Of a stretch of DNA of 64,000 nt, positions 13,531 through 55,604 are shown one piece after another. The notes under the pieces were generated by a model. It did not search any database and was not told where the DNA came from. It worked only from the letters and a program-made list of their open reading frames with translations. The position numbers and the translations under genes were made by a program. How positions within the stretch are numbered: position 1 is the first letter of the stretch; every line of letters starts with the position of its first letter. The stretch is taken from NCBI GenBank assembly GCA_009838525.1, contig VXRJ01000038.1, forward strand, positions 136,654 through 200,653, given 5' to 3'. Source of the stretch: Acidobacteriota bacterium (GTDB lineage: Bacteria; Acidobacteriota; Vicinamibacteria; Vicinamibacterales; UBA8438).

Positions 13531-15519
13531 TCAGGCCTCGGGCAGACGCAGGGCGACCAGCGAGCCGGGATATCGATCCGGCCCGCCGGCGATCGGGATG
13601 ACGATGTACTGGCGCCCCTCGTGCATGTAGCTCATCGGGATGCTGGTGGCCGGCGCCGGGATCCCGACGGCGCCGAGCTGGTCGCCGGTCCGCTTGTCGA
13701 CCGCGTAGAGCAGCGGGCGGCCGCCCCTTCCCTCCGAGTACATCAACAATGACCGGGTGACGATCGAGAGCGACTGGCTCCGCACGCCGGTGTTCGGCAG
13801 GTCCACGCCGGCAAGCGCCGGGTGATTCCGGATCGCGTCGGGCGTATCGCCGTTGGGGATCATCCACAGCGTCTCCCCGGTGTTCATGTCGATGGCGGTG
13901 ATCCGGCCGTAGGGCGGCTTGAAGAGGGGCAGGCCCTGCGGCCCCTGCAGGAACCCGTTGTCGGTCGCGTACTTCGCGATGGTCCGGCCGACGGGATTCG
14001 GATCCGCCGCGTCACCCTCTTCGCCGGGCGTCAGGATGGGGGCCGCGCACAAGGTCATCGACGAGGCGTAAAGGACGCCGGTCTCCGGGTCGGCCGACGT
14101 GCCACCGGTGATGTTGGTTCCCCCGCCCGGACCGGGGCAGTGGATCGCGCCGCGCTTCCCGAGGTCGTTGTCGGGATGGAGCGGCGGCATGAACATCGAC
14201 CCGTACTGGTACTGGTTCAGGATCTCGAGCGCCTGCTGCCGCAGCTCCGGCGTGAAGTCGATCAGATCGTCCTCGGTCACCTCCTGCAGGTCGTAGGCGG
14301 GCGGCTTGGTCGGAAACGGCTGGGTCGGCGAATACCACTCCCCCGGTACATGGCCGCGCGGCACCGGGCGCTCCTCGATGGGCCAGATCGGCTCGCCCGT
14401 CTCCCGGTTGAACGTGTAGGCGAACGCCTGTTTCGTCGTCTGCACGAGGATCGGCGTCCGCCGGCCGTCGATGGTGACGTCGAGCAGGTTCGGCGCGGTC
14501 GGATTGTCCCGGTTCCAGATATCGTGATGCACCGTCTGGAAGTGCCACTGCCGCTCGCCGGTCCGGACGTCGAGGGCCAGGATGCTGGTGGCGAACAGGT
14601 TGTCGCCCGGATGGAACCCGCCCCAGTAGTCGTTGGTCGGCGGGTCGGTCACGACGTAGACCAGCCCGAGCTCCGAGTCGGCCGACAGCGGCGCCCACGC
14701 CGACACGTTGCCGGTCCACTGCCACGCGTCGTTCTCCCACGTGTCGAAGCCGAACTCGCTCTCCGACTGCGGGATCACGTTGAACTTCCACAGGTGCTCT
14801 CCGGTCGCCGCGTCGTACGCCAGCACGTGTCCCGGAACGTTCTCGTGGCGCGTCTGGCGGTAGCCCTGTTCGTGCGAGTTCCCCACCACGACGACGCCGT
14901 TCACGACGATGGGTGGTGACGAATTGGTGATGTAGCCCACCTCGGACGGCAGGCCGTTCGTCGGGTGGTACTCGTAGCCGAAGTCGGCGAGCAGATCGAC
15001 GGTCCCGTTGTTGCCGAAGCCGGAGATCAGCTTACCGGTGTCGGGATCGAGCGCGTGCAGGAAGAAGCCGGGGGTGACGACGTAGATGCGCCCCTCCCCG
15101 TTCACCTGATCGTAGGCGACGCCCTTGCCGTAGTTCTTGCGCATCGAATCCGCCCAGCGCTTCGTCGGCGGCTCGCGGAAGGTCCAGAGGGTCTCGCCCG
15201 TCTCCGGGTCCATGGCGATCACCTGGCGCCGGTAGCCGGCGACGCCGAACAGCTTGCCTTCGGCGTAGATCGGCGTCGAACGCATGACGTTGTCGACCTG
15301 CGGGCCGTAGTTGTCGCCACGCCAGACCCACGCCACCTCGAGGTCCTCGAAGTTCCCCGCGTTGATCTGATCGAACGGCGCGTAGCGCGAGCTCCCTTCG
15401 TCGCCGCCCCAGTGGGTCCAGCCGCCGTCGCCCTGCGCGGACAGCGTGCCCGTGGCCAACAGGGCCAGCACGCCCAACGCTCCGAGGAGCTTGGTTCCCG
15501 CCAATCGCCGTCGTGTCAT
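13531..15519 (-). CDS. Exported PQQ-dependent dehydrogenase (quinoprotein)
   Basis: A 662-residue quinoprotein. Start ATG 15519 chosen for its GGGAG site and the signal peptide that follows immediately (RRRLAG, hydrophobic core to residue 29); the frame is open further upstream without a good site. The mature end opens GGWTHWGGDEGSSRYAPFDQ and shows the eight-bladed propeller repeats (MDPETGETLWTF, ALDPDTGKLISGFG, YDAATGEHLWKF, ALDVRTGERQWHFQ, FNRETGEPIWPIEE, IDMNTGETLWMIP). HHDIWNRDNPTAPNL and HCPGPGGGTN are typical of membrane-type glucose or alcohol quinoproteins. No haem motif is present, so electrons must pass to a separate cytochrome. Substrate not assignable. Divergent from the cyclase gene across a 107-bp gap. 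Confidence 0.92.
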   Translation of the reverse strand: MTRRRLAGTKLLGALGVLALLATGTLSAQGDGGWTHWGGDEGSSRYAPFDQINAGNFEDLEVAWVWRGDNYGPQVDNVMRSTPIYAEGKLFGVAGYRRQVIAMDPETGETLWTFREPPTKRWADSMRKNYGKGVAYDQVNGEGRIYVVTPGFFLHALDPDTGKLISGFGNNGTVDLLADFGYEYHPTNGLPSEVGYITNSSPPIVVNGVVVVGNSHEQGYRQTRHENVPGHVLAYDAATGEHLWKFNVIPQSESEFGFDTWENDAWQWTGNVSAWAPLSADSELGLVYVVTDPPTNDYWGGFHPGDNLFATSILALDVRTGERQWHFQTVHHDIWNRDNPTAPNLLDVTIDGRRTPILVQTTKQAFAYTFNRETGEPIWPIEERPVPRGHVPGEWYSPTQPFPTKPPAYDLQEVTEDDLIDFTPELRQQALEILNQYQYGSMFMPPLHPDNDLGKRGAIHCPGPGGGTNITGGTSADPETGVLYASSMTLCAAPILTPGEEGDAADPNPVGRTIAKYATDNGFLQGPQGLPLFKPPYGRITAIDMNTGETLWMIPNGDTPDAIRNHPALAGVDLPNTGVRSQSLSIVTRSLLMYSEGRGGRPLLYAVDKRTGDQLGAVGIPAPATSIPMSYMHEGRQYIVIPIAGGPDRYPGSLVALRLPEA

Positions 15520-15626
15520 GGTGTCGATCTCCCTCAGCCGAGTCGCGTGATTATGTCCGATCCGGCCCGTTGACGCCGTCGCCGCCGCGTGGCAGAGTCG
15601 GAACCCACGTCTCCAGGAGGAACGCC

Positions 15627-16598
15627 GTGCGACTTCACCTTGCCCCGATCGCCTTCTTGCCACTGCTCACCCTGTTCGCCGGCGCACTCGCTCTCGCGCC
15701 GGCCGCGCATGCGCAGTCGTGGTCGCTGCCCTCCGAGGCGGAACGCTGCCCGTCGAAGTGGGGCGCCAACGACACGCGCGGCGCCGCCAACCATATGGGC
15801 CCCGAGTCGGTGCTGCGCGCGGCGGGCCTGATCCGGGAGGGGCGTGTGATCGAGTTGGGACAGGTGCTGCATAGTGGGATGCCGCTCGGCGCCCGGCATT
15901 TCGACGTCTACATGAAACCGACGACGATGAACCCGCAAAGCAACCGGCGCGGATCGAACGAGGAGCTGGTGGTGGCGGAAATGGGTCAGGTCGGGACGCA
16001 GTTCGACGCCTTCCCACACCAGACCATCGGCGACAGCCTCTACAACTGCGTCGACATGAACGAGGTGATTACCCGGACCGGCTTCACGCGGCTCGGCGTC
16101 GAGGGCGTCGGCACATTGATGACGCGAGGCGTCCTGATCGACGTCGCCGCGCTCAAGGGCGTCGACATGCTGCCGGACACCTACGAGATCACGGTCGACG
16201 ACCTGCAGCAGGCGCTGGACCGCCAGGGCGTGTCGCTGGAAACAGGTGACGCAGTGCTGATTCACACCGGATGGGGCGTGCTCTGGGAGACCGACGGCGA
16301 GCGTTTCATGGCGACGAACCCCGGCATTGGAGTCGCTGCGGCCGAATGGCTCATCGAGCACGACCCGATGATCCTCGGCGCCGACAATCAGCCGGTGGAG
16401 GTCTCTCCCAACCCCGACCCGAACCTGTCGCTACCGATCCATCAACTGGCCCTGGTCGTCCACGGCATCCACCTCGTCGAGCGGATGAAGCTGGACGAGC
16501 TGGCCGCCGCCGGCGTCTACGAGTTCGCCTTCGTCGTCCAGCCCCTCAAGCTTCAGGGCGCAACCGGATCGACCGTCGTCCCGGTCGCCATCTACTGA
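15627..16598 (+). CDS. Exported cyclase family protein (PF04199, kynurenine formamidase-like)
   Basis: A 323-residue protein starting at GTG 15627 with a perfect AGGAGG at 15615-15620 and a signal peptide (cleavage after AHAQ). The fold is that of the Mn/Zn-dependent cyclase/formamidase family: RVIELGQVLHSGMPL, then the metal motif GTQFDAFPH (residues 123-131), LIDVAALKGV, VLIHTGWG, and EVSPNPDPNLSLPIHQLALVVHGI. The usual first histidine in HxGTHxD is Gln125, while Asp127 and His131 are kept. This Q variant occurs in a sub-branch and may keep activity. The likely reaction is hydrolysis of an amide, formamide or lactone in the periplasm; substrate unknown. Confidence 0.88.
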   Translation: MRLHLAPIAFLPLLTLFAGALALAPAAHAQSWSLPSEAERCPSKWGANDTRGAANHMGPESVLRAAGLIREGRVIELGQVLHSGMPLGARHFDVYMKPTTMNPQSNRRGSNEELVVAEMGQVGTQFDAFPHQTIGDSLYNCVDMNEVITRTGFTRLGVEGVGTLMTRGVLIDVAALKGVDMLPDTYEITVDDLQQALDRQGVSLETGDAVLIHTGWGVLWETDGERFMATNPGIGVAAAEWLIEHDPMILGADNQPVEVSPNPDPNLSLPIHQLALVVHGIHLVERMKLDELAAAGVYEFAFVVQPLKLQGATGSTVVPVAIY

Positions 16599-37419: not shown

Positions 37420-38934
37420 TTACTGCGACCGCGCCGGAACCTGCAACTCCGGCATCGGCTCCGCGGTAAAGAGCCGCTTCAGGGGAATCGCGAGCCACCG
37501 CGCCCAGGTTGCCGCCCGGGAGACGCGCGCGCTGTCGGTGGCGATGCCGGTGTTGCCGTACATCTGGCGGTACAGCTTCGATACCAGCATGAACGCGAGG
37601 CGTGACTTGAGCGAGCGTACGCAGCGCGACCGCCGCCAGACCGCGCCGAGCCGGTAGAACCGGTCCCAGGCCCGTTGCGTTCCCATGCGGATCTCCTCGG
37701 CCGTCATCGCCGGGTGGGGCGAGAAGATCTTCGGCCGCTTAATCGGCGGAATCAGCCAGTACCGGCTGACCGGCACGCCGTCGACATCCGGCACTCCCTT
37801 CGCCTCGTTCTCTTCCCACTTCAGGAAGTCTAGGGTGCCGGGGAAGGGGGTGAGCGTCAGGAACTGCGCGAAATCTATGTCGGCGGCATTCGCAAGCGCC
37901 GCCGTCGCGTCGAACGTCGACGGTTTGTCGCTGGGCAGGCCGAAGATGAACGACCCGAGCACGTGCACGCCGTGCTCGCGGAACTGCCGGAGTTGTTGCA
38001 CCAGGTCATCGCCCGCCAGGTTGAAGCCCTTGTAGACGTCCTTCAGCCCCTCCTCGGTAACCGCCTCCACGCCGATCAGCGCGCCCTTGATGCGCGCCGC
38101 GCGCATGGCATCGAGGAACGCCGGATCCTCGGCCGCCTCCATGGTGATCTGCGTAAAGAAGATGGTGTCTTCCGGCAACTGCGCGAGCATTTCCATCAGT
38201 TCGAACCGTTCGGCCCGCAGGGCCTCGAGCTCGCGCAACCGCGAGGGATCCTTACGCCGCTTGGCCATCGCCAGATCCTCGAGCGTTACCGGGTAGAAGT
38301 TGTCGTCCGCCAGCGCGATGAAGCGGAATCCCATCCGCCGCAGCTGCACGATCTCCTCGATGACCGCGTCAACCGTCCGCTGGCGCGGCTCCTGTCCGTC
38401 GGTCCGCCAGACCGAGCAGAACGAGCAGTGCTTGGGACAGCCCCGCACGGTCTGGACCGAGGCCCACATGTAGCGTTCGCGCGGCATCAGGTCCCATCGC
38501 GCCTTCTGCAGAGACGCGCCGGGAACACGGCCGCCGTCATAAATCCGTTCGTGCCGCCCCGCCGCGACGTCCTCGATCACGTGCGGCCACGCGCCGTCTC
38601 CGTCCCCCTTCACGACCGCGTCGGCGTGGCCGCGCTCCAGGGCTTCCTCGGGGTAGAGGGTGGCATGGATGCCGCCGTAGATCACCCGCGCGCCACGTTC
38701 CCTCGCAATGCGTCCCACCTCGTACCCGCGCAGCGCGTTGCCGGTATGGACGCCGATGCCGACGATGTCTCCCTCCTCGATCGTCTCTGGGTCGAGCGGT
38801 TCGAGAGTCTCGTCGACGATGACCGGATCGCCGTACTGCCGGGGTGTCGCGTGCGCCAGCACATAGAGCCAGCGCGGCGTGATGACCGCGAGACCAAAGG
38901 CAATATGGCTGGGGTTGATGAGATGTATGCGCAT
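37420..38934 (-). CDS. B12-binding domain radical SAM protein
   Basis: A 504-residue cytosolic enzyme. Residues 1-140 form a cobalamin-binding-like Rossmann domain (VGIGVHTGNALRGYEVGRIA, then VIYGGIHATLYPEEALE); the DxHxxG motif is absent, so binding would be base-off without a His lower ligand, as in many radical SAM methylases. The radical SAM cluster motif is C166-P-K-H-C170-S-F-C173, with following conserved FIALADDNFYP and GFIFGLPSDKP-like blocks. C-terminal residues from about 400 form a helical tail. The usual reactions are methyl transfer to unactivated carbon or ring rearrangement, on hopanoids, lipids or peptides. The substrate cannot be assigned. Confidence 0.9.
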   Translation of the reverse strand: MRIHLINPSHIAFGLAVITPRWLYVLAHATPRQYGDPVIVDETLEPLDPETIEEGDIVGIGVHTGNALRGYEVGRIARERGARVIYGGIHATLYPEEALERGHADAVVKGDGDGAWPHVIEDVAAGRHERIYDGGRVPGASLQKARWDLMPRERYMWASVQTVRGCPKHCSFCSVWRTDGQEPRQRTVDAVIEEIVQLRRMGFRFIALADDNFYPVTLEDLAMAKRRKDPSRLRELEALRAERFELMEMLAQLPEDTIFFTQITMEAAEDPAFLDAMRAARIKGALIGVEAVTEEGLKDVYKGFNLAGDDLVQQLRQFREHGVHVLGSFIFGLPSDKPSTFDATAALANAADIDFAQFLTLTPFPGTLDFLKWEENEAKGVPDVDGVPVSRYWLIPPIKRPKIFSPHPAMTAEEIRMGTQRAWDRFYRLGAVWRRSRCVRSLKSRLAFMLVSKLYRQMYGNTGIATDSARVSRAATWARWLAIPLKRLFTAEPMPELQVPARSQ

Positions 38935-44633: not shown

Positions 44634-44746
44634 GGCTTGCCGCTCCCTCCCCGATCACTGCACCTTACGCCGCTGGGCGGCAGAAGACAACGGCGCGTCG
44701 CCCCTTCCGGGTGATTCGACTATGCTTTCCGGCTGGAGGTCGATTG

Positions 44747-46489
44747 ATGACGCATAGGCACGGATTTACGGCGGGTTCGGGCGTGGTGGCGGCTGTGGCC
44801 GCGGTCGTGGTGCTGTTCCTCGGCGCGACTTCCCCGGCCGCGGGGCAGAACGTCGACTGGCGCCTGCACAATCTCGACCTGCACGGGAGCCGATACGCCG
44901 AGATCGATCAGATCACGCCCGAGAACGCCCACCGGCTGGAGCCGCGCTGGCTGTTTCAGCATGGCGTCATCGACGGCGTGAGCAACCAGACGACGCCGAT
45001 CGTCATCGATGGCGTCATGTACCTGACCGACTCGCGGGGCAGCGTCTACGCCGTCGACGCTCACAACGGCCATCACCTCTGGACCTACGACGTGACCAAC
45101 CAGCTCGGCGGGGGCCGGGAGGAGGGCTACATCTTCCGCCACCGCGGTCCCACCTACGAGGACGGCGTCGTGTACAGCGCCGCCGGGTCGTTCATTTTCG
45201 CGCTCGATGCCGAGACGGGGGAGCCGATCGAGACCTTCGGCGACAACGGCCAGGCGTCGGTCATCCTCGATGTGCTGCGCCTCCGCTATCCCGATGTCGA
45301 AACCGCCATTTCGATGGGCTACTGGTTCACGACGGCGCCGCAGATCCACGACGGCGTCATCTACGTCGGATCGACGCGGAGCGAGAGCCTGATTCCGGGG
45401 GGGCACGTTCTGGCCGTCGATGCGAGGACGGGCGAAGTGCTCTGGCACTTCAACACGATCCCGCAGGACGAGAACGATCAGGGTTGGGACATAGCCGGTC
45501 CGACCTGGGTTGGCGGCGGTCGAGAGGGCGGCGGCATCTGGGAGACGCCGTCGATCGACCCGGAGCTGGGCCTGCTCTACGTCGCCGTAGGCAACCCGTT
45601 CGGCGACAGCACGAAGCGGTCCGGCCTGAATCTCTTCACCGACTCGGTCCTGGCCCTCAGTCTCGACACGGGCGAGTTGCGCTGGTACTACCAGCTCGTC
45701 CACCACGATGTCTGGGACTACGACAACGGCAGCCAGCCGATCCTGTTCGACATCGAAGTGGACGGCGAGCGGGTGCCCGCGCTGGCGCAGGCGAACAAGA
45801 ACAGCTTCGTGTATCTGCTGAACCGGGAGACCGGCGAGCCGATTCACTCGATAGTCGAGACCCCGGTGCCGACCGAGACCGATCGGGAAGGGGAGGAGCC
45901 GTGGCCGACACAGCCGATCCCGCACACCGCGGCCGGCGAGCCGATGCTGCCGGCCTCGCCGATCTTCCCGGAGGCCATCCCCGCCGATCATGCGGAGGGC
46001 AAGACCCTCGTGCCGATTTTCACGCCGATGGCGCCGGATCAGATTTTCGCTCCCGGCTACGGCGGCGGTCCGAGCTACGGGCCCCTCGCCTTCAGCAAGG
46101 AGACGGGTCTGCTTTACGTCAACGCGATCGATCAGCCCTTCAATTCGGGACGCGGTCCCCGGATGTTCTTCACGGCCTACGATCCCACGACCGGCGAGAT
46201 GGTCTGGCGGCGGATCTACGAGGGGTACGGCCAGGCGGGGCCGGTGGTCACTTCCGGCGGCGTCGTGTTCGTCGGAACCGGGAGCAACCTCGCCGGCTAT
46301 TTCTTCGCGATCGACGCGCGGACGGGCGAGGAGCTCTACCGCTTCAACACCGGCGCCGGGGTCTTCTCGTCTCCCTCGGTCTACATGGTGAACGGCGAGC
46401 AGTTCGTCACCGTCGCGTCGGGTGGGGGCGACCGGGGCCGGCGGGGCGGCGCCCTGATCCTCGCCTTCGCCCTGCCGAAGGAGGATTGA
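44747..46489 (+). CDS. Exported PQQ-type quinoprotein
   Basis: A 580-residue quinoprotein. ATG 44747 with GGAGGT upstream begins the leader (residues about 10-33, PAAGQ). An ATG at 44711 adds 12 residues and is less likely. The mature protein opens WRLHNLDLHGSRYAEIDQIT, followed by propeller repeats (AVDAHNGHHLWTYD, ALDAETGEPIETFG, AVDARTGEVLWHFN, SLDTGELRWYYQ, LNRETGEPI, AYDPTTGEMVWRR, AIDARTGEELYRF). HHDVWDYDNGSQPILFD matches the alcohol quinoprotein pattern. No haem is present. It differs from the quinoprotein at 13531 in length and blades. Substrate unknown. A family member follows 55 bp downstream. Confidence 0.9.
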   Translation: MTHRHGFTAGSGVVAAVAAVVVLFLGATSPAAGQNVDWRLHNLDLHGSRYAEIDQITPENAHRLEPRWLFQHGVIDGVSNQTTPIVIDGVMYLTDSRGSVYAVDAHNGHHLWTYDVTNQLGGGREEGYIFRHRGPTYEDGVVYSAAGSFIFALDAETGEPIETFGDNGQASVILDVLRLRYPDVETAISMGYWFTTAPQIHDGVIYVGSTRSESLIPGGHVLAVDARTGEVLWHFNTIPQDENDQGWDIAGPTWVGGGREGGGIWETPSIDPELGLLYVAVGNPFGDSTKRSGLNLFTDSVLALSLDTGELRWYYQLVHHDVWDYDNGSQPILFDIEVDGERVPALAQANKNSFVYLLNRETGEPIHSIVETPVPTETDREGEEPWPTQPIPHTAAGEPMLPASPIFPEAIPADHAEGKTLVPIFTPMAPDQIFAPGYGGGPSYGPLAFSKETGLLYVNAIDQPFNSGRGPRMFFTAYDPTTGEMVWRRIYEGYGQAGPVVTSGGVVFVGTGSNLAGYFFAIDARTGEELYRFNTGAGVFSSPSVYMVNGEQFVTVASGGGDRGRRGGALILAFALPKED

Positions 46490-50127: not shown

Positions 50128-50721
50128 TCACCAGGCGCGGGACCAGTTCGGTCCGGGCCGATCGTCAGTCCGGAGGGAAGCGTCGAGGCCCGCCTGGTGT
50201 TCCAGGAGACGGCCGCACAGCCAAAGCAGGTCCGAGAGCCGGTTGAGATAGGCGAGCACGGGCGGCCGCACTTCCGCTCCCGCTTCCATCAGGCGGACCG
50301 CATCCCGTTCGGCGCGGCGGCAGACGGTGCGGGCGACGTCGAGGGCTGACGCGACCGGATCTTCACCCGGCAGCGACCAGTCGCCCAGGACCCCCTCGAT
50401 TCCCTCGATGCGATGCACCTCGCCGGTGAGACGCTCGACCATGGCGTCGGTCACGCGGCTGAGCGGGCGTCCGCTCCGCGTCTCGGGCGCGTTCGCCGGT
50501 GTGACGAGCTCGCCCCCGACGACGAACAGCTCGCGCTGGATCTCCTTCAGCAGGGCGCCCACCGGCTCGTCCCGGCAGATGGATCGGGCCAGGCCGATCT
50601 GCGCGTTCAGTTCGTCCACCGCGCCGCACGCCTCGATGTGAGGCGACGACTTGCGGACGCGGGTCCCGCCCAGAAGACCGGTCTCGCCGCCGTCGCCGCG
50701 CGTCGTGGCAATACTGCTCAT
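50128..50721 (-). CDS. pduO: PduO-type cob(I)alamin adenosyltransferase
   Basis: A 197-residue ATP:cob(I)alamin adenosyltransferase of the PduO (MMAB) type. Signatures: TTRGDGGETGLLGGTRV, RKSSPHIEACGAVDELNAQI, EIQRELFVVGGELV and, near the end, CRRAERDAVRLMEAG and YLNRLSDLLWLCGRLLE. These are the ATP- and cobalamin-site residues of the trimeric enzyme. It makes adenosylcobalamin from salvaged corrinoids in the cytosol. It follows the BtuB-like gene by 33 bp in the same transcript, so it falls under the same riboswitch. A GAGGAGAGG site precedes the ATG. Confidence 0.92.
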   Translation of the reverse strand: MSSIATTRGDGGETGLLGGTRVRKSSPHIEACGAVDELNAQIGLARSICRDEPVGALLKEIQRELFVVGGELVTPANAPETRSGRPLSRVTDAMVERLTGEVHRIEGIEGVLGDWSLPGEDPVASALDVARTVCRRAERDAVRLMEAGAEVRPPVLAYLNRLSDLLWLCGRLLEHQAGLDASLRTDDRPGPNWSRAW

Positions 50722-50754
50722 GGTTTCCCTCTCCTCTTGTGTCCGGGGCGTTGA

Positions 50755-53199
50755 TCAGTCGCCGCCCAGCGTGACCGACACCCCGGAGCGGAAGGCCGCC
50801 CCGAGCGACGGGAAGCCGGTTGCCGCCGCGTAGTCCTGGTCCAGCAGGTTCTCGATGCTCGCGAACCAGCGTACACGCGGGTGGAGTCGCCAGGACGTGC
50901 TCAGGTCGATCTTCTGGTAGGCCTGACCCAGGTCGCGGTTGGGTAGCAGCATCGACGGGCCGAAGAACGGATCGGCCAGGAACGTGCTGCCGTCCGACTT
51001 TCCGGAGAAGAAGCCGGCGAGCGTCACTTGACCCGAGCCGAGCAGGTACGACACGCGCAGGTTCGCGACATGCCGGGGCCGGCGGAACGGGCGTTCGCCC
51101 ACCAGCGGGGAGTACTGGCCGATGGCGATGTCGGGCCACGCGGGATTGAAGACCGGGGCGAGGGCGCTGCTGCTGAACGATGCCGTCACCTCCGCGTCGA
51201 CGTACGCGTACGACCCGAACATCTCGATGTTGCCGGCGCGCAGGTCGGCGGAGGTCTCCAGGCCGCGCGCCCGGAATGACGAGGCGTTGACGTTGGCCCC
51301 GAACGGCACTGCCGCGGCGGCGTCGGTCGCCACGCCCAACTGGGGCAGCACCGACTTGTTGACGTACTCAACCTGGTCGGTGAACACGTTGTCGAACCAG
51401 GCGGCCCGCAGTTGCAGGTGTCCTCCGGCGAGGGTCTGCTCGACGCCGACGTCGAACGTCCGGCTCCGTTCGGGCCCGATCGGCGCGATGCCGAACCGGG
51501 AAACGACCTCCGCGCCGCCGTCGAGCGACTCGAGGAGCGTGAAGAGCGACTGTGTCTGGTTGAAGACGGACGGCGCCTTGATGCCGCGGCCGGCGTTGAC
51601 GGTCAGCTTTGTAGCGCCCACGCTGCCGCCGTCGGCCGCCGGCGTGCGGGCGTAGAACGCCAGCGAGACACGCGGCGTGACTGCCCGGCCGAACAGGCCG
51701 TTCCGTTCCACGCCGAGGCCGCCGGTGGCGAACAACCGGTTGCCGCCGCTGGCCTGGGCTTCCACGAAGGCTCCGCTGTTGACCCGCTGGATCTCGCCGC
51801 TGCTGCCGGAGCGGCCTTGCTCCCGCTCGATCCGGGCTCCCCCGGTCAGGTCGAGTGCGCCGGTCACCCGGTACGTCGCCCGCCCTGACACGAAGCGGCG
51901 GGTCGTGTCGGACTCGAAGACGGACGGATAGGCGCCGCCGTAGTCGAGGATGGCGCGCCCGGTGACGCTGTAGCCGTTCGCGCCGGTCACCGTCACCGTG
52001 TCGCCGAGGTAGTTGGCGCCGAAGCCGAACGGATCGAACGCCTCGCCGGTCGGTGCGGGATTGGAGAAGACGTAGTCGCGCTCCATGGATCCGAACTGCA
52101 ACGCCGTCTGCAGGCGGCTGGTCACCTGGGAGTAGGCGGTCACTCCCACGAGCGTCAGCAACTGGGTCTGCGACGCGTCGTCCGGCCGGCCGTAGTAGAG
52201 GATGCCGTTGGGCGCCTCGTAGTCCGCGTCCATGCGGCGGACGGTGATGCTGATGTCCGTCGACGTGCCGAGCCGGATTCCCAAGCGGCCGGCGCCGGTC
52301 ACGTTGGCATAGGCGTTGTTGGGCACCTCGTTGCCGGTCCGGAATCGCGAGACGTCGGCGAAGTAGTCGATCCGCCCGTTCAGACCGCCGAGCGACAGGG
52401 CGTGGCGTGACGTGCCGAAGTTGCCCCCATCGGCCGTGTAGGCGACGGTTGGCGTCTGCGTCGAACCGCGCGGCGTCGTCAGGCTGATGACGCCGTTCAG
52501 CGCGTCGGCGCCGTAGGTCACGCTGTTCGCGGCGCGCAGCACCTCGACCCGCTCGACGCCGGTTGCGGCGACGGTGGCCCACGCGAACGCCCCGCCGATA
52601 TCGTTGGCCGGCACGCCGTCGATCAACACCTTGTTGAAGTCGGAGTCGCCGCCCCGAATGAAGACCGACGTCGTGCCGCCGCGTCCCGCCGTCTGCACGA
52701 TGTTGGCGGACGGGGTCAGGCGGAGCGCTTCGAGAATGTCGACTTTCTCCAGGCGGTCGAGCGTCTCGGACGTCACCACCATGGCCGGCGCGCCGCTCCG
52801 CGCCTGCGGCAGGTCCGCCGCGGCGGCGGTCACTACGACGTGCTGCGCGATCGGCCCGATGGTCAGCGCGAGCGTGATCGTCGCCGTCGAACCGGCGCTC
52901 ACGAACACGTGCGCCGCCAGCGGCTCGAATCCGCCGGCGCGCGCGGTGACGACGTAGCGTCCCGGGGCGAGGTGGTCGAACGTGAAGCCGCCGTTCGCCG
53001 CGACGGACGTCTCGGCCACTGGACTGCCGTCGCGCAGGACCGTGACGACGCCGCCCACCCCGCCGCCCAGTTGGTCGGTGACGACGCCCTCGATCCGGCC
53101 GGAAGTCTGCTGCGCGTGCGCAGGTGCGCTGAACAGACCGGGAACGGGGGAGAAGAAAAGAAGCAGCGCCGCGGCCGCGGCGCCCCCGATGGACCGCAT
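50755..53199 (-). CDS. btuB: BtuB-like TonB-dependent corrinoid receptor
   Basis: An 814-residue outer-membrane receptor. ATG 53199 is set by TGGAGG about 5 bases upstream; an ATG at 53247 lacks a site. The leader (residues 5-30) is followed by a carboxypeptidase-regulatory-like N-domain (SGRIEGVVTDQLGGGVGG) and a plug (VDILEALRLTPSANI, FIRGGDSDFNKVLIDGVPAND), then the barrel ending in VSVTLGG. Position directly downstream of a cobalamin riboswitch, together with a PduO gene, identifies it as a corrinoid transporter rather than a siderophore receptor. No TonB, BtuF or BtuCD genes are in the window. Its start is 86 bp past the riboswitch end. Confidence 0.9.
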   Translation of the reverse strand: MRSIGGAAAAALLLFFSPVPGLFSAPAHAQQTSGRIEGVVTDQLGGGVGGVVTVLRDGSPVAETSVAANGGFTFDHLAPGRYVVTARAGGFEPLAAHVFVSAGSTATITLALTIGPIAQHVVVTAAAADLPQARSGAPAMVVTSETLDRLEKVDILEALRLTPSANIVQTAGRGGTTSVFIRGGDSDFNKVLIDGVPANDIGGAFAWATVAATGVERVEVLRAANSVTYGADALNGVISLTTPRGSTQTPTVAYTADGGNFGTSRHALSLGGLNGRIDYFADVSRFRTGNEVPNNAYANVTGAGRLGIRLGTSTDISITVRRMDADYEAPNGILYYGRPDDASQTQLLTLVGVTAYSQVTSRLQTALQFGSMERDYVFSNPAPTGEAFDPFGFGANYLGDTVTVTGANGYSVTGRAILDYGGAYPSVFESDTTRRFVSGRATYRVTGALDLTGGARIEREQGRSGSSGEIQRVNSGAFVEAQASGGNRLFATGGLGVERNGLFGRAVTPRVSLAFYARTPAADGGSVGATKLTVNAGRGIKAPSVFNQTQSLFTLLESLDGGAEVVSRFGIAPIGPERSRTFDVGVEQTLAGGHLQLRAAWFDNVFTDQVEYVNKSVLPQLGVATDAAAAVPFGANVNASSFRARGLETSADLRAGNIEMFGSYAYVDAEVTASFSSSALAPVFNPAWPDIAIGQYSPLVGERPFRRPRHVANLRVSYLLGSGQVTLAGFFSGKSDGSTFLADPFFGPSMLLPNRDLGQAYQKIDLSTSWRLHPRVRWFASIENLLDQDYAAATGFPSLGAAFRSGVSVTLGGD

Positions 53200-53284
53200 C
53201 CGAACCTCCAGTCGGCGTCTCCACGCGCCGAGCATGCGGTGCGGCATCGGTCACGCCGCGCCCGCAGGTTTACCGATTCCCCGA

Positions 53285-53450
53285 CGCCTGGTCTCCTGAC
53301 TCGTGGATCGACACGGTGCGGCAACGCCTTCCCATGCCCGCGGCACAGTGGCTGACGCTGAAGCGTCGCTTGCCGCCCGCTCCCCACTTACAGTGGCGGG
53401 ACCGTGTGGGTTTCTCACCCACTTCCCAACTCGTCGGGGCGCGAACAGTG
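53285..53450 (-). ncRNA. Cobalamin riboswitch controlling the BtuB-PduO operon
   Basis: On the minus strand the order is GGGAAGTGGGTGAGAAACCC, the conserved core CCGCCACTGT (53399-53390), an SL with GACGCTTCAGCGTC, GCCACTGTGCCGC, GGGAAGGC, and the 3' B12 box GTCAGGAGACC (53300-53290). These match the cobalamin-riboswitch consensus closely. It lies 86 bp upstream of the BtuB start and probably represses initiation or transcription when adenosylcobalamin is abundant. The regulator covers both receptor and adenosyltransferase genes. Confidence 0.92.
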
Positions 53451-53456
53451 GCCGAG

Positions 53457-53462
53457 AGTGTA
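53457..53462 (-). promoter_or_regulatory. -10 element of the riboswitch transcript
   Basis: TACACT on the minus strand (53462-53457), preceded by an extended TGC. It would start transcription near 53450, just where the riboswitch begins. The -35 would fall inside the divergent cbiZ start region, so the two promoters overlap. The -35 match is weak. Confidence 0.4.
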
Positions 53463-53478
53463 GCATGCCGCCGACGCG

Positions 53479-54651
53479 ATGAACCCGAAGACCCCGGAAG
53501 CGACGGCGGCGATAGGAGACGCGGCGGACGTGTTGCACGGCGACGGTCAATTCATCGCGCGGCGCAGCGGCAGGTTCCTGGTGGTCGAACTGCTGATGCC
53601 GCACCGGGTAGTCAGCACGTCGGCGCACCAGGGTGGTGAGCAGGAAGACCTGCGCTACCTCGTGAACCATCAGAGCTGTGAGGCGAGCGGCGATACGGCG
53701 CGCCACGAACTGATCAGCCGGCTCGGGCTTCCGGCGTACCACCGCGACGTTTGTGGCGAGATTGGCATCGATCCGGACCGGGCGGCGGTGATGGGAACCG
53801 CCGCCAACATGGCGTGCGCCGCCCACCGGTCCGCCGGGTTCGAGGAACTGCGGGCCGACGCGTTCGTGACGGCGGGGGTAGCCGGCAACGCCACGCGGGC
53901 CGGTGAGCCGGCATCCTGGCATGAGACGGACGATGGCAGTTGGCGCCGTGTCAACCCCATGGCCGGCACGATCAACACGCTCCTGCTGATCAACGTCCCG
54001 ATCACGTCCGCCGCGCAGGCGCGCGCGGTGGTGACGATGACGGAGGCGAAGTCGGCCGCACTGGCGGACCTCGCGGTCCCTAGCCGCCGGTCGCCGGCGA
54101 TCGCCACCGGCACCGGGACGGATCAGTTCTGTATTGCCGCGCCGCTCGATCCCTCGCGCCGGTCGCGCGAGTCGACCGGCCCGCACGCCAAGCTGGGCGA
54201 GCTGATCGGCGTCGCCGTCAAGGAGGCGACGGCGGAGGCGTTGCGGTGGCAGAACGGACTGGAGCCTTCGTATACCCGCGGCCTCGCGCACGCTCTGGGA
54301 CGCTTCGGCTTTGCCGAGGCGGAGGCGCTCGAACGGCTTGCCGAGCTGCTCCCGGAGTCACAGCATGCGTTGCTCGAGCGCAACCAGCGGGCGCTGTTCT
54401 ACGACCCGGGCGTCGCTGCATCGGCCTACGCGATCGCTGCCGTGCTCGATCGCATCGCCGCCGGGACCCTGCCGGCCGGTTACGCCGCCGAGGCGCTCCG
54501 CCACCAGGCGGCCTCGCTCGCCTGCGCGGTGTCGGCGCGGCCATTGGACTGGGTTTCGTTCCATGCCGCGCTGGGAGACGCGCGTGATGACAGTCCGGTG
54601 GATCTGGTGTTGCGCGCCATAGCCGTCGGCTGGGCCGCGAAGTGGACCTGA
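53479..54651 (+). CDS. cbiZ: CbiZ-type adenosylcobinamide amidohydrolase
   Basis: A 390-residue protein whose central and C-terminal parts match CbiZ: RRSGRFLVVELLMPHRVVS, LVNHQSCEASGDTARHE, AVMGTAANMACAAH, AFVTAGVAGNATRAGEPASW, NPMAGTINTLLLINVPI, MTEAKSAALADLAVPS, IATGTGTDQFCIAAPL and HAKLGELIGVAVKEA. CbiZ cleaves the aminopropanol/nucleotide-loop side of cobinamide or pseudocobalamins to cobyric acid, allowing corrinoid remodelling. It is longer than most CbiZ proteins (about 240 residues) by a helical C-terminal extension. It overlaps the following cobD gene by 10 bp, showing a shared operon. Confidence 0.9.
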   Translation: MNPKTPEATAAIGDAADVLHGDGQFIARRSGRFLVVELLMPHRVVSTSAHQGGEQEDLRYLVNHQSCEASGDTARHELISRLGLPAYHRDVCGEIGIDPDRAAVMGTAANMACAAHRSAGFEELRADAFVTAGVAGNATRAGEPASWHETDDGSWRRVNPMAGTINTLLLINVPITSAAQARAVVTMTEAKSAALADLAVPSRRSPAIATGTGTDQFCIAAPLDPSRRSRESTGPHAKLGELIGVAVKEATAEALRWQNGLEPSYTRGLAHALGRFGFAEAEALERLAELLPESQHALLERNQRALFYDPGVAASAYAIAAVLDRIAAGTLPAGYAAEALRHQAASLACAVSARPLDWVSFHAALGDARDDSPVDLVLRAIAVGWAAKWT

Positions 54652-55604
54652 CCTTCCTCGCACCCCGCGCCGATCTGCTGGTCGCCGCGGCCCTGGCGGA
54701 TCTCGTGTTGGGCGATCCGCGCTACCGGTTTCATCCGGTCCGTCTCATTGGCCAGGCACTCGTCTTCCTCGAGGCGCGCCTGCGCGCCGTCGGTTGCGAC
54801 GGCTATGTGGGGGGCTGCGTTCTGTTCGTGCTCCTTGTCGCCGCGAGCGGCGGCGCCGCGGGGATGGTCCTGGTTGTTCTCCAGGGTCTTCATCCCGTCG
54901 CCGCGCTGGCGGGACATGGCTTTCTGCTGTACAGCCTGCTTGCCCTGGGGGACCTGTTCGCGCACGGCCGTGCGATCGACGCGGCGGCCAACGCCGGGGA
55001 TCTCGACGGCGCGCGCCGCGCCGCGGCGCGACTCGTCGGCCGCGACGTCGAGCGGCTGGATGCCGCGGGCTGCCGCCGCTGCGCGATCGAGAGTTTCGGG
55101 GAGAGCCTGGTGGACGGCTTCGTCTCGCCGATCGCGTGGTATGCAGTGGCGGGACTGCCCGGTCTGGTGATCTTCAAGCTGGTAAGCACCATGGATTCGA
55201 TGGTCGGCTACCGGACCGAGCGCTACGCCCGCTTCGGTTGGTGCGGGGCTCGACTGGACGACGCGATGAACCTGCTGCCGGCGCGGGCGGGGTGGCTCCT
55301 GATCGCCGTGGCGGGAGCAGTGGTCCCGGGGGCATCGGGCGTTGCGGCGGCGCGCGTTGGCTGGTCCCAGCACGCCGTCGTGCCGGGGCCGAACGCCGGC
55401 TGGAGCGAGACGGCCCTGGCGGGCGCCATCCGCCGGCGCCTCGCGGGCCCAATCCACTTTCAGGGGCGACTGGTCACCGATCGCTGGATCGGGGAACCTG
55501 ACGATCCTCCGGGCGGGAGCTCGACCGACTATCGACTGGCCGGCCGCGTGGTCGCGGTGGCGGCTCTCCTGACCGTCGTTGCCGCCGCCACCTGGCTGGC
55601 GTAG
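54642..55604 (+). CDS. cobD: CobD/CbiB adenosylcobinamide-phosphate synthase
   Basis: A 320-residue integral membrane protein started at GTG 54642 inside the cbiZ end. DPRYRFHPVRLIGQALVFLE is the canonical N-terminal block, and VERLDAAGCRRCAIESFGESLVDGF, IFKLVSTMDSMVGYRTERY and WCGARLDDAMNLLPARAGW the conserved middle. CbiB joins adenosylcobyric acid to aminopropanol phosphate. Directly after CbiZ this closes the loop: remove the foreign side chain, then rebuild it. The remaining steps (CobU, CobS, CobT) are not in the window. Confidence 0.93.
   Translation: MDLTFLAPRADLLVAAALADLVLGDPRYRFHPVRLIGQALVFLEARLRAVGCDGYVGGCVLFVLLVAASGGAAGMVLVVLQGLHPVAALAGHGFLLYSLLALGDLFAHGRAIDAAANAGDLDGARRAAARLVGRDVERLDAAGCRRCAIESFGESLVDGFVSPIAWYAVAGLPGLVIFKLVSTMDSMVGYRTERYARFGWCGARLDDAMNLLPARAGWLLIAVAGAVVPGASGVAAARVGWSQHAVVPGPNAGWSETALAGAIRRRLAGPIHFQGRLVTDRWIGEPDDPPGGSSTDYRLAGRVVAVAALLTVVAAATWLA

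Follow-up and report, generated by a model that had tools for sequence, protein, structure and literature searches.

The locus described here appears to serve corrinoid salvage in a cobamide auxotroph, with an archaeal-style CbiZ-CbiB branch that would feed a nucleotide-loop step our searches did not detect. We give this reading a probability of roughly 45%. It concerns one region of the window, by which we mean the whole 64,000-nucleotide stretch of an Acidobacteriota contig that was analyzed. In the proposed scheme, low corrinoid would cause a riboswitch to permit synthesis of a TonB-dependent receptor and the adenosyltransferase PduO. BtuFCD, controlled by a second riboswitch, would bring corrinoids into the cell, where PduO would adenosylate them. 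Acting on cobinamide or on cobamides of little use to the cell, CbiZ would hydrolyze the f-side-chain amide to give adenosylcobyric acid, and CbiB would re-add aminopropanol phosphate to form adenosylcobinamide phosphate (AdoCbi-P), an archaeal-type detour standing in for the CobU kinase. AdoCbi-P would most likely pass to a nucleotide-loop-assembly step beyond the reach of known family models, and MetH and methylmalonyl-CoA mutase (MCM) would be the likely cofactor users.

Layout and riboswitch control of the locus

The original prediction had placed a cobalamin riboswitch ahead of btuB-pduO on the minus strand and overlapping, divergent cbiZ-cobD genes on the plus strand, and every one of these elements was located as claimed (Table 1). 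Its gene labels fared unevenly. PduO, CbiZ, and CbiB all had strong Pfam matches, whereas the best NCBIfam match of the receptor, the B12 receptor model TIGR01779, scored 107.6 bits, far under its cut-off of 599.7, so the name btuB comes only from the riboswitch context. The gene labeled cobD is cbiB according to its PF03186 match and does not encode threonine-phosphate decarboxylase. The two plus-strand genes overlap by 10 nt. While the longest open reading frame of the receptor begins at 53247, a GGAGG Shine-Dalgarno sequence precedes an ATG at 53199, and the latter is likely the true start. Judged from sequence, this is a real locus for corrinoid uptake and partial remodeling.

Table 1. Features of the corrinoid salvage locus, with window positions, strands, and supporting matches.
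Feature	Position	Strand	Evidence
PduO-type ATP:corrinoid adenosyltransferase	50128..50721	-	PF01923 166 bits, 9.6e-49; TIGR00636 147.9 bits, above cut-off 108.45
BtuB-like TonB-dependent receptor	50755..53247	-	Plug 4e-21; CarboxypepD_reg 2.8e-12
Cobalamin riboswitch aptamer	53269..53467	-	RF00174 84.2 bits, E 2.7e-19; gathering score 31.5 bits
Two-domain CbiZ	53479..54651	+	PF01955 179.3 bits, 1.1e-52; cut-off 27 bits
CbiB, adenosylcobinamide-phosphate synthase family, divergent clade	54642..55604	+	PF03186 259.5 bits, 4.7e-77, over cut-off 34.4; TIGR00380 164.5, just under cut-off 165.9

A covariance-model check bore out the riboswitch, with a full-length match above the gathering score that was also the sole Rfam match within the window. 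The aptamer lies in cis of the receptor-pduO operon and not of the divergent cbiZ-cbiB pair, although only 11 nt separate its 5' edge from the start codon of cbiZ. A second cobalamin riboswitch (93.4 bits; L008:11525-11696, equivalent to G000 C18:647524-647695) lies ahead of btuF-btuC-btuD in the same genome, BtuF corresponding to PF01497. With regard to the expression platform, the fold of the riboswitch region was no better than that of shuffled sequences (z = -0.87), and a search there for a sigma-70 promoter-like site found none. Terminator-like sites were located inside the receptor coding region.

Loop-assembly enzymes in the genome and its relatives

We searched the genome to which the window belongs (4.29 Mb) for the loop-assembly enzymes CobU, CobS, and CobT and for one corrin-ring enzyme, CbiC. 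Family searches that were positive for between 6 and 10 of the 14 controls returned no CobS, CobT, or CobU anywhere in this genome, which extends the earlier observation that the three are missing at the locus. The de novo marker CbiC/CobH (PF02570) also had no match in the genome (7 of 14 controls were positive). The absence of this ring enzyme supports dependence on corrinoids from other producers, as had been proposed. The further claim that the bacterium can remodel corrinoids was left unsupported. Complete remodeling calls for CobU, CobS, and the base-activating CobT, and with all three missing from the genome the pathway stops at AdoCbi-P if only known enzymes are considered. Hence, the predicted route of import, CbiZ, CbiB, and adenosylation holds in its gene assignments, to which the second riboswitch with btuFCD can be added, but not in the completion of a rebuilt cobamide.

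Since the known enzymes that are encoded stop at AdoCbi-P, this compound (or cobyric acid) might be the real end product, acting as a cofactor or a store or being released to CobS-bearing neighbors. We consider this unlikely. The genome encodes MetH as well as an MCM small subunit adjoining the large chain, and a reading of their sequences indicates that the B12-binding domains of both retain DxHxxG, SxL, and GG. Retention of these nucleotide-tail pocket motifs implies that complete cobamides are probably still needed. Release without benefit to the cell would also leave the purifying selection on the two genes (see below) unexplained. Elsewhere in the window, a radical SAM protein with a weak B12-binding domain (37420-38934, minus strand) is a possible further corrinoid user, and two PQQ-type beta-propeller dehydrogenases are encoded at 13531-15663 (minus strand) and 44711-46489 (plus strand).

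The genome is in 38 contigs and 96.85% complete, and a gap in the assembly could therefore hide CobS, CobU, and CobT in missing sequence, leaving an ordinary case of CbiZ remodeling. We rejected this explanation and consider its chance to be very slight. CobS was found in none of 60 genomes, counting that of the window along with 59 relatives, nor was CobT, apart from one borderline match in another family. In addition, three single-chromosome genomes of 6.2 to 6.5 Mb (G061, G075, and G090) carry the cbiZ-cbiB pair while CobS, CobU, and CbiC are all missing from them. Among the 60 genomes, CbiZ occurred in 12, every one from the window's family, of which another 16 genomes are CbiZ-negative, and CbiB occurred exclusively in 11 of these 12. 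The cbiZ of the twelfth sits on a contig of 3,051 bases. Where relatives have the pair, btuFCD and/or the adenosyltransferase gene pduO are nearby and a riboswitch is close.

Distribution, selection, and phylogeny of the CbiZ-CbiB pair

The two-domain type of CbiZ was present at 80 loci from Acidobacteriota, Latescibacterota, Gemmatimonadota, Fibrobacterota, Verrucomicrobiota, Tectimicrobiota, and a few other groups, judging by record titles. It spanned at least six phyla among 41 genomes, five of which (G060, G062, G063, G065, and G066) are assemblies already counted as family members. CbiB was detected at 72 of the 80 loci and followed cbiZ on the same strand at 71. At the exception, L120, cbiB is divergent from cbiZ and its protein is only 37% identical. 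CobS was lacking in 28 of the 41 genomes, including the three single chromosomes, with another five having a CobS-like protein and eight an intact CobS. CobU scored above its cut-off in 7 of 45 genomes, each with intact CobS, and CbiC was found in 1 of 44. Clustering of neighbors in search of a conserved extra partner yielded only transport, adenosyltransferase, and CbiP genes, and nothing in the cbiZ-cbiB neighborhoods emerged as a candidate for the final step. The cobyric acid synthase-like gene cbiP was near cbiZ-cbiB in 14 loci, mostly of CobS-less genomes (e.g., L065, L070, L092, L106, L110, L112, and L121). The gene adjoining cbiB at L029:8678-9469 encodes a membrane protein whose N-terminal domain is of the urate-oxidase type (PF06181), and the arrangement recurs at L028 and L030.

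In Salmonella CobS, residues D82, D86, and D89 of the HxDxxxDxxD motif are each required (PMC8092220). This motif is intact in the eight CobS proteins of the 41-genome set. In the five CobS-like proteins (L141:5617-6366, L136, L137, L138, and L139), it reads HLSGLATTMD, HISGLAATMD, HLRAVAELMD, HLRAFAELID, and HLRAVAELLD. These proteins come from Entotheonella and Fibrobacterota, where they are encoded outside any B12 cluster. We rejected them as divergent CobS given the loss of D82 and D86 and the lack of a surrounding B12 cluster; perhaps they have been repurposed.

Such proteins in pair-bearing genomes would be consistent with cbiZ-cbiB as the remnant of a lost salvage pathway, on its way out. 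This possibility is disfavored, and we regard it as very improbable, because the pair is intact across phyla and conserved at the protein level. Specifically, among the closest pairs within the CobS-less family of the window, cbiZ gave Nei-Gojobori dN/dS of 0.09-0.21, the part of it encoding the C-terminal domain 0.09-0.28, and cbiB 0.15-0.26. Both genes are under purifying selection in this family. Selection on the pair, together with cofactor users that keep the tail pocket, implies that AdoCbi-P has a further fate, and the absence of CobU, CobS, and CobT makes a loop step missed by known models its most likely destination.

The CbiB proteins beside two-domain CbiZ formed a single clade (support 100/99) with a branch length of 1.07 from five CbiB of other types, a placement that carries long-branch and composition warnings. 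Residues S182 and G249 were specific to the type in a comparison with only five canonical sequences. A long, well-supported branch with distinctive residues would be consistent with CobS-independent remodeling, in which cleavage of the amide by CbiZ removes the nucleotide loop in one piece and the divergent CbiB joins another intact loop, aminopropanol-phospho-alpha-nucleoside, in its place. Lower ligands would then be swapped without CobU, CobS, or CobT, with binding or reading of the alpha-ribazole phosphate portion falling to the CobZ-like domain of CbiZ. Retention of the pair without loop-assembly enzymes across many phyla and the extra conserved domain in every CbiZ of the set also agree with such an exchange. 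However, we know of no precedent for it, and two genomes argue against it. G085 encodes CbiC, CobT, CobS, and CobU, and the one CbiB detected there is of this type and lies beside cbiZ. The sole CbiB found in G092, where CobS and CobU are present, belongs to the same clade. Being the only CbiB in either genome, it probably catalyzes the ordinary AdoCbi-P synthase reaction, and the sequences indicate that the type can serve the ordinary pathway.

We rank an undetected loop-assembly step first and AdoCbi-P as an end product second, with whole-loop exchange being the boldest of the three and somewhat less probable still. A more general claim, which we advance only tentatively, is that two-domain CbiZ and its dedicated CbiB clade make up a widespread module for cobamide remodeling that dispenses with CobU, CobS, and CobT, either by a whole-loop swap or together with an as yet undescribed loop synthase. 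The pair has probably also moved between lineages, as two single-contig Entotheonella chromosomes (L057 and L059) have cbiZ-cbiB that are 65-67% identical to those of the window and nested among Acidobacteriota, a pattern suggestive of horizontal transfer.

The two-domain CbiZ and comparison with known salvage systems

CbiZ consists of an adenosylcobinamide amidohydrolase domain (about 40-251) and a conserved helical C-terminal domain (about 252-390). Every CbiZ of the set carries this additional domain of ~140 residues (WQNGLE-S-TR...HALGRFG...). AlphaFold pLDDT was 90.1 for the whole protein and 91.8 for the C-terminal domain alone. Searched by sequence, the CbiZ family had no match among PDB chains. 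The predicted structure of the core (window 53479-54234) has a fold like that of NylC/DmpA hydrolases (Z = 14.8, rmsd 4.1, 191 aligned), resembling NylC, DmpA-type amidases, and ornithine acetyltransferase at Z of 12 to 14.8. This predicted fold offers a route to mapping the catalytic residues of CbiZ.

The top folds for the C-terminal domain were 1rfz, 1y9i, and 1tlq (Z of 7.0-7.4, rmsd 3.9-4.5, 124-133 aligned; next chain Z = 4.1), where Z below 13 is weak evidence for a helical domain. We take all three to be PgpA/YutG-family proteins, to which archaeal CobZ presumably also belongs; 1tlq is labeled DUF64. Foldseek gave E-values of about 2 or more, and there was no sequence match to Pfam or, by profile comparison, to E. 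coli PgpA. Sequence comparison of the domain with CbiS likewise gave no support, the one signal being 1 of 57 members at E = 0.012. The CbiS model NF038002 was matched by all 60 CbiZ proteins, but the score at this locus, 63.7 bits, is under the equivalog cut-off of 250. The CbiS-like architecture suggested by these models is a lead and not a claim of membership.

Archaeal cobinamide salvage employs CbiZ, CbiB, CobY, CobS, and CobZ, and CbiS of Methanopyrus kandleri is CbiZ fused to CobZ. The locus shares with these systems a CbiZ-CbiB detour without CobU and a second domain after CbiZ. It differs in falling short of the NF038002 cut-off, in having a C-terminal domain that is not recognized by sequence as CobZ or PgpA, and in the lack of CobS. 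As in the remodeling system of Rhodobacter sphaeroides, CbiZ is found with cobamide salvage and transport genes, and cleavage to cobyric acid would be followed by CbiB. In Rhodobacter, other gene products go on to complete the cobamide (PMC7733943), whereas here CobU, CobS, and CobT are absent and CbiZ bears its extra domain. Akkermansia likewise depends on salvage alone and combines import genes with an enzyme that cleaves corrinoids, although its CbiR is a TIM-barrel enzyme unrelated to CbiZ and its locus includes cobT, cobS, and cobU (PMC7733943). The available part of PMC3541065 describes cbiB amid B12 transport genes in DUF71-B12/cbiB clusters, reports CbiZ or DUF71-B12 in the genomes that encode CbiB, and describes the route from CbiZ through cobyric acid to CbiB, which makes the CobU kinase dispensable. 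In our case it is CbiZ that is present, and clusters without CobS are not discussed in that part of the source.

CbiZ, CbiB, the riboswitch, and the transport genes are all of already-known kinds. CobS has been described as present in all sequenced cobamide producers (PMC8092220), and pathway predictions take CbiZ as a mark of remodeling (PMC6461909). A literature search covering few subscription papers found no report of CbiZ-CbiB pairs without CobS. That selection maintains such a pair, with no functional CobS, in members of at least six phyla implies either an undiscovered nucleotide-loop branch or an unexpected corrinoid, and either outcome would alter predictions of who uses whose B12. 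Judged by their names, many of the CbiZ-CbiB genomes without functional CobS are apparently sponge-derived.
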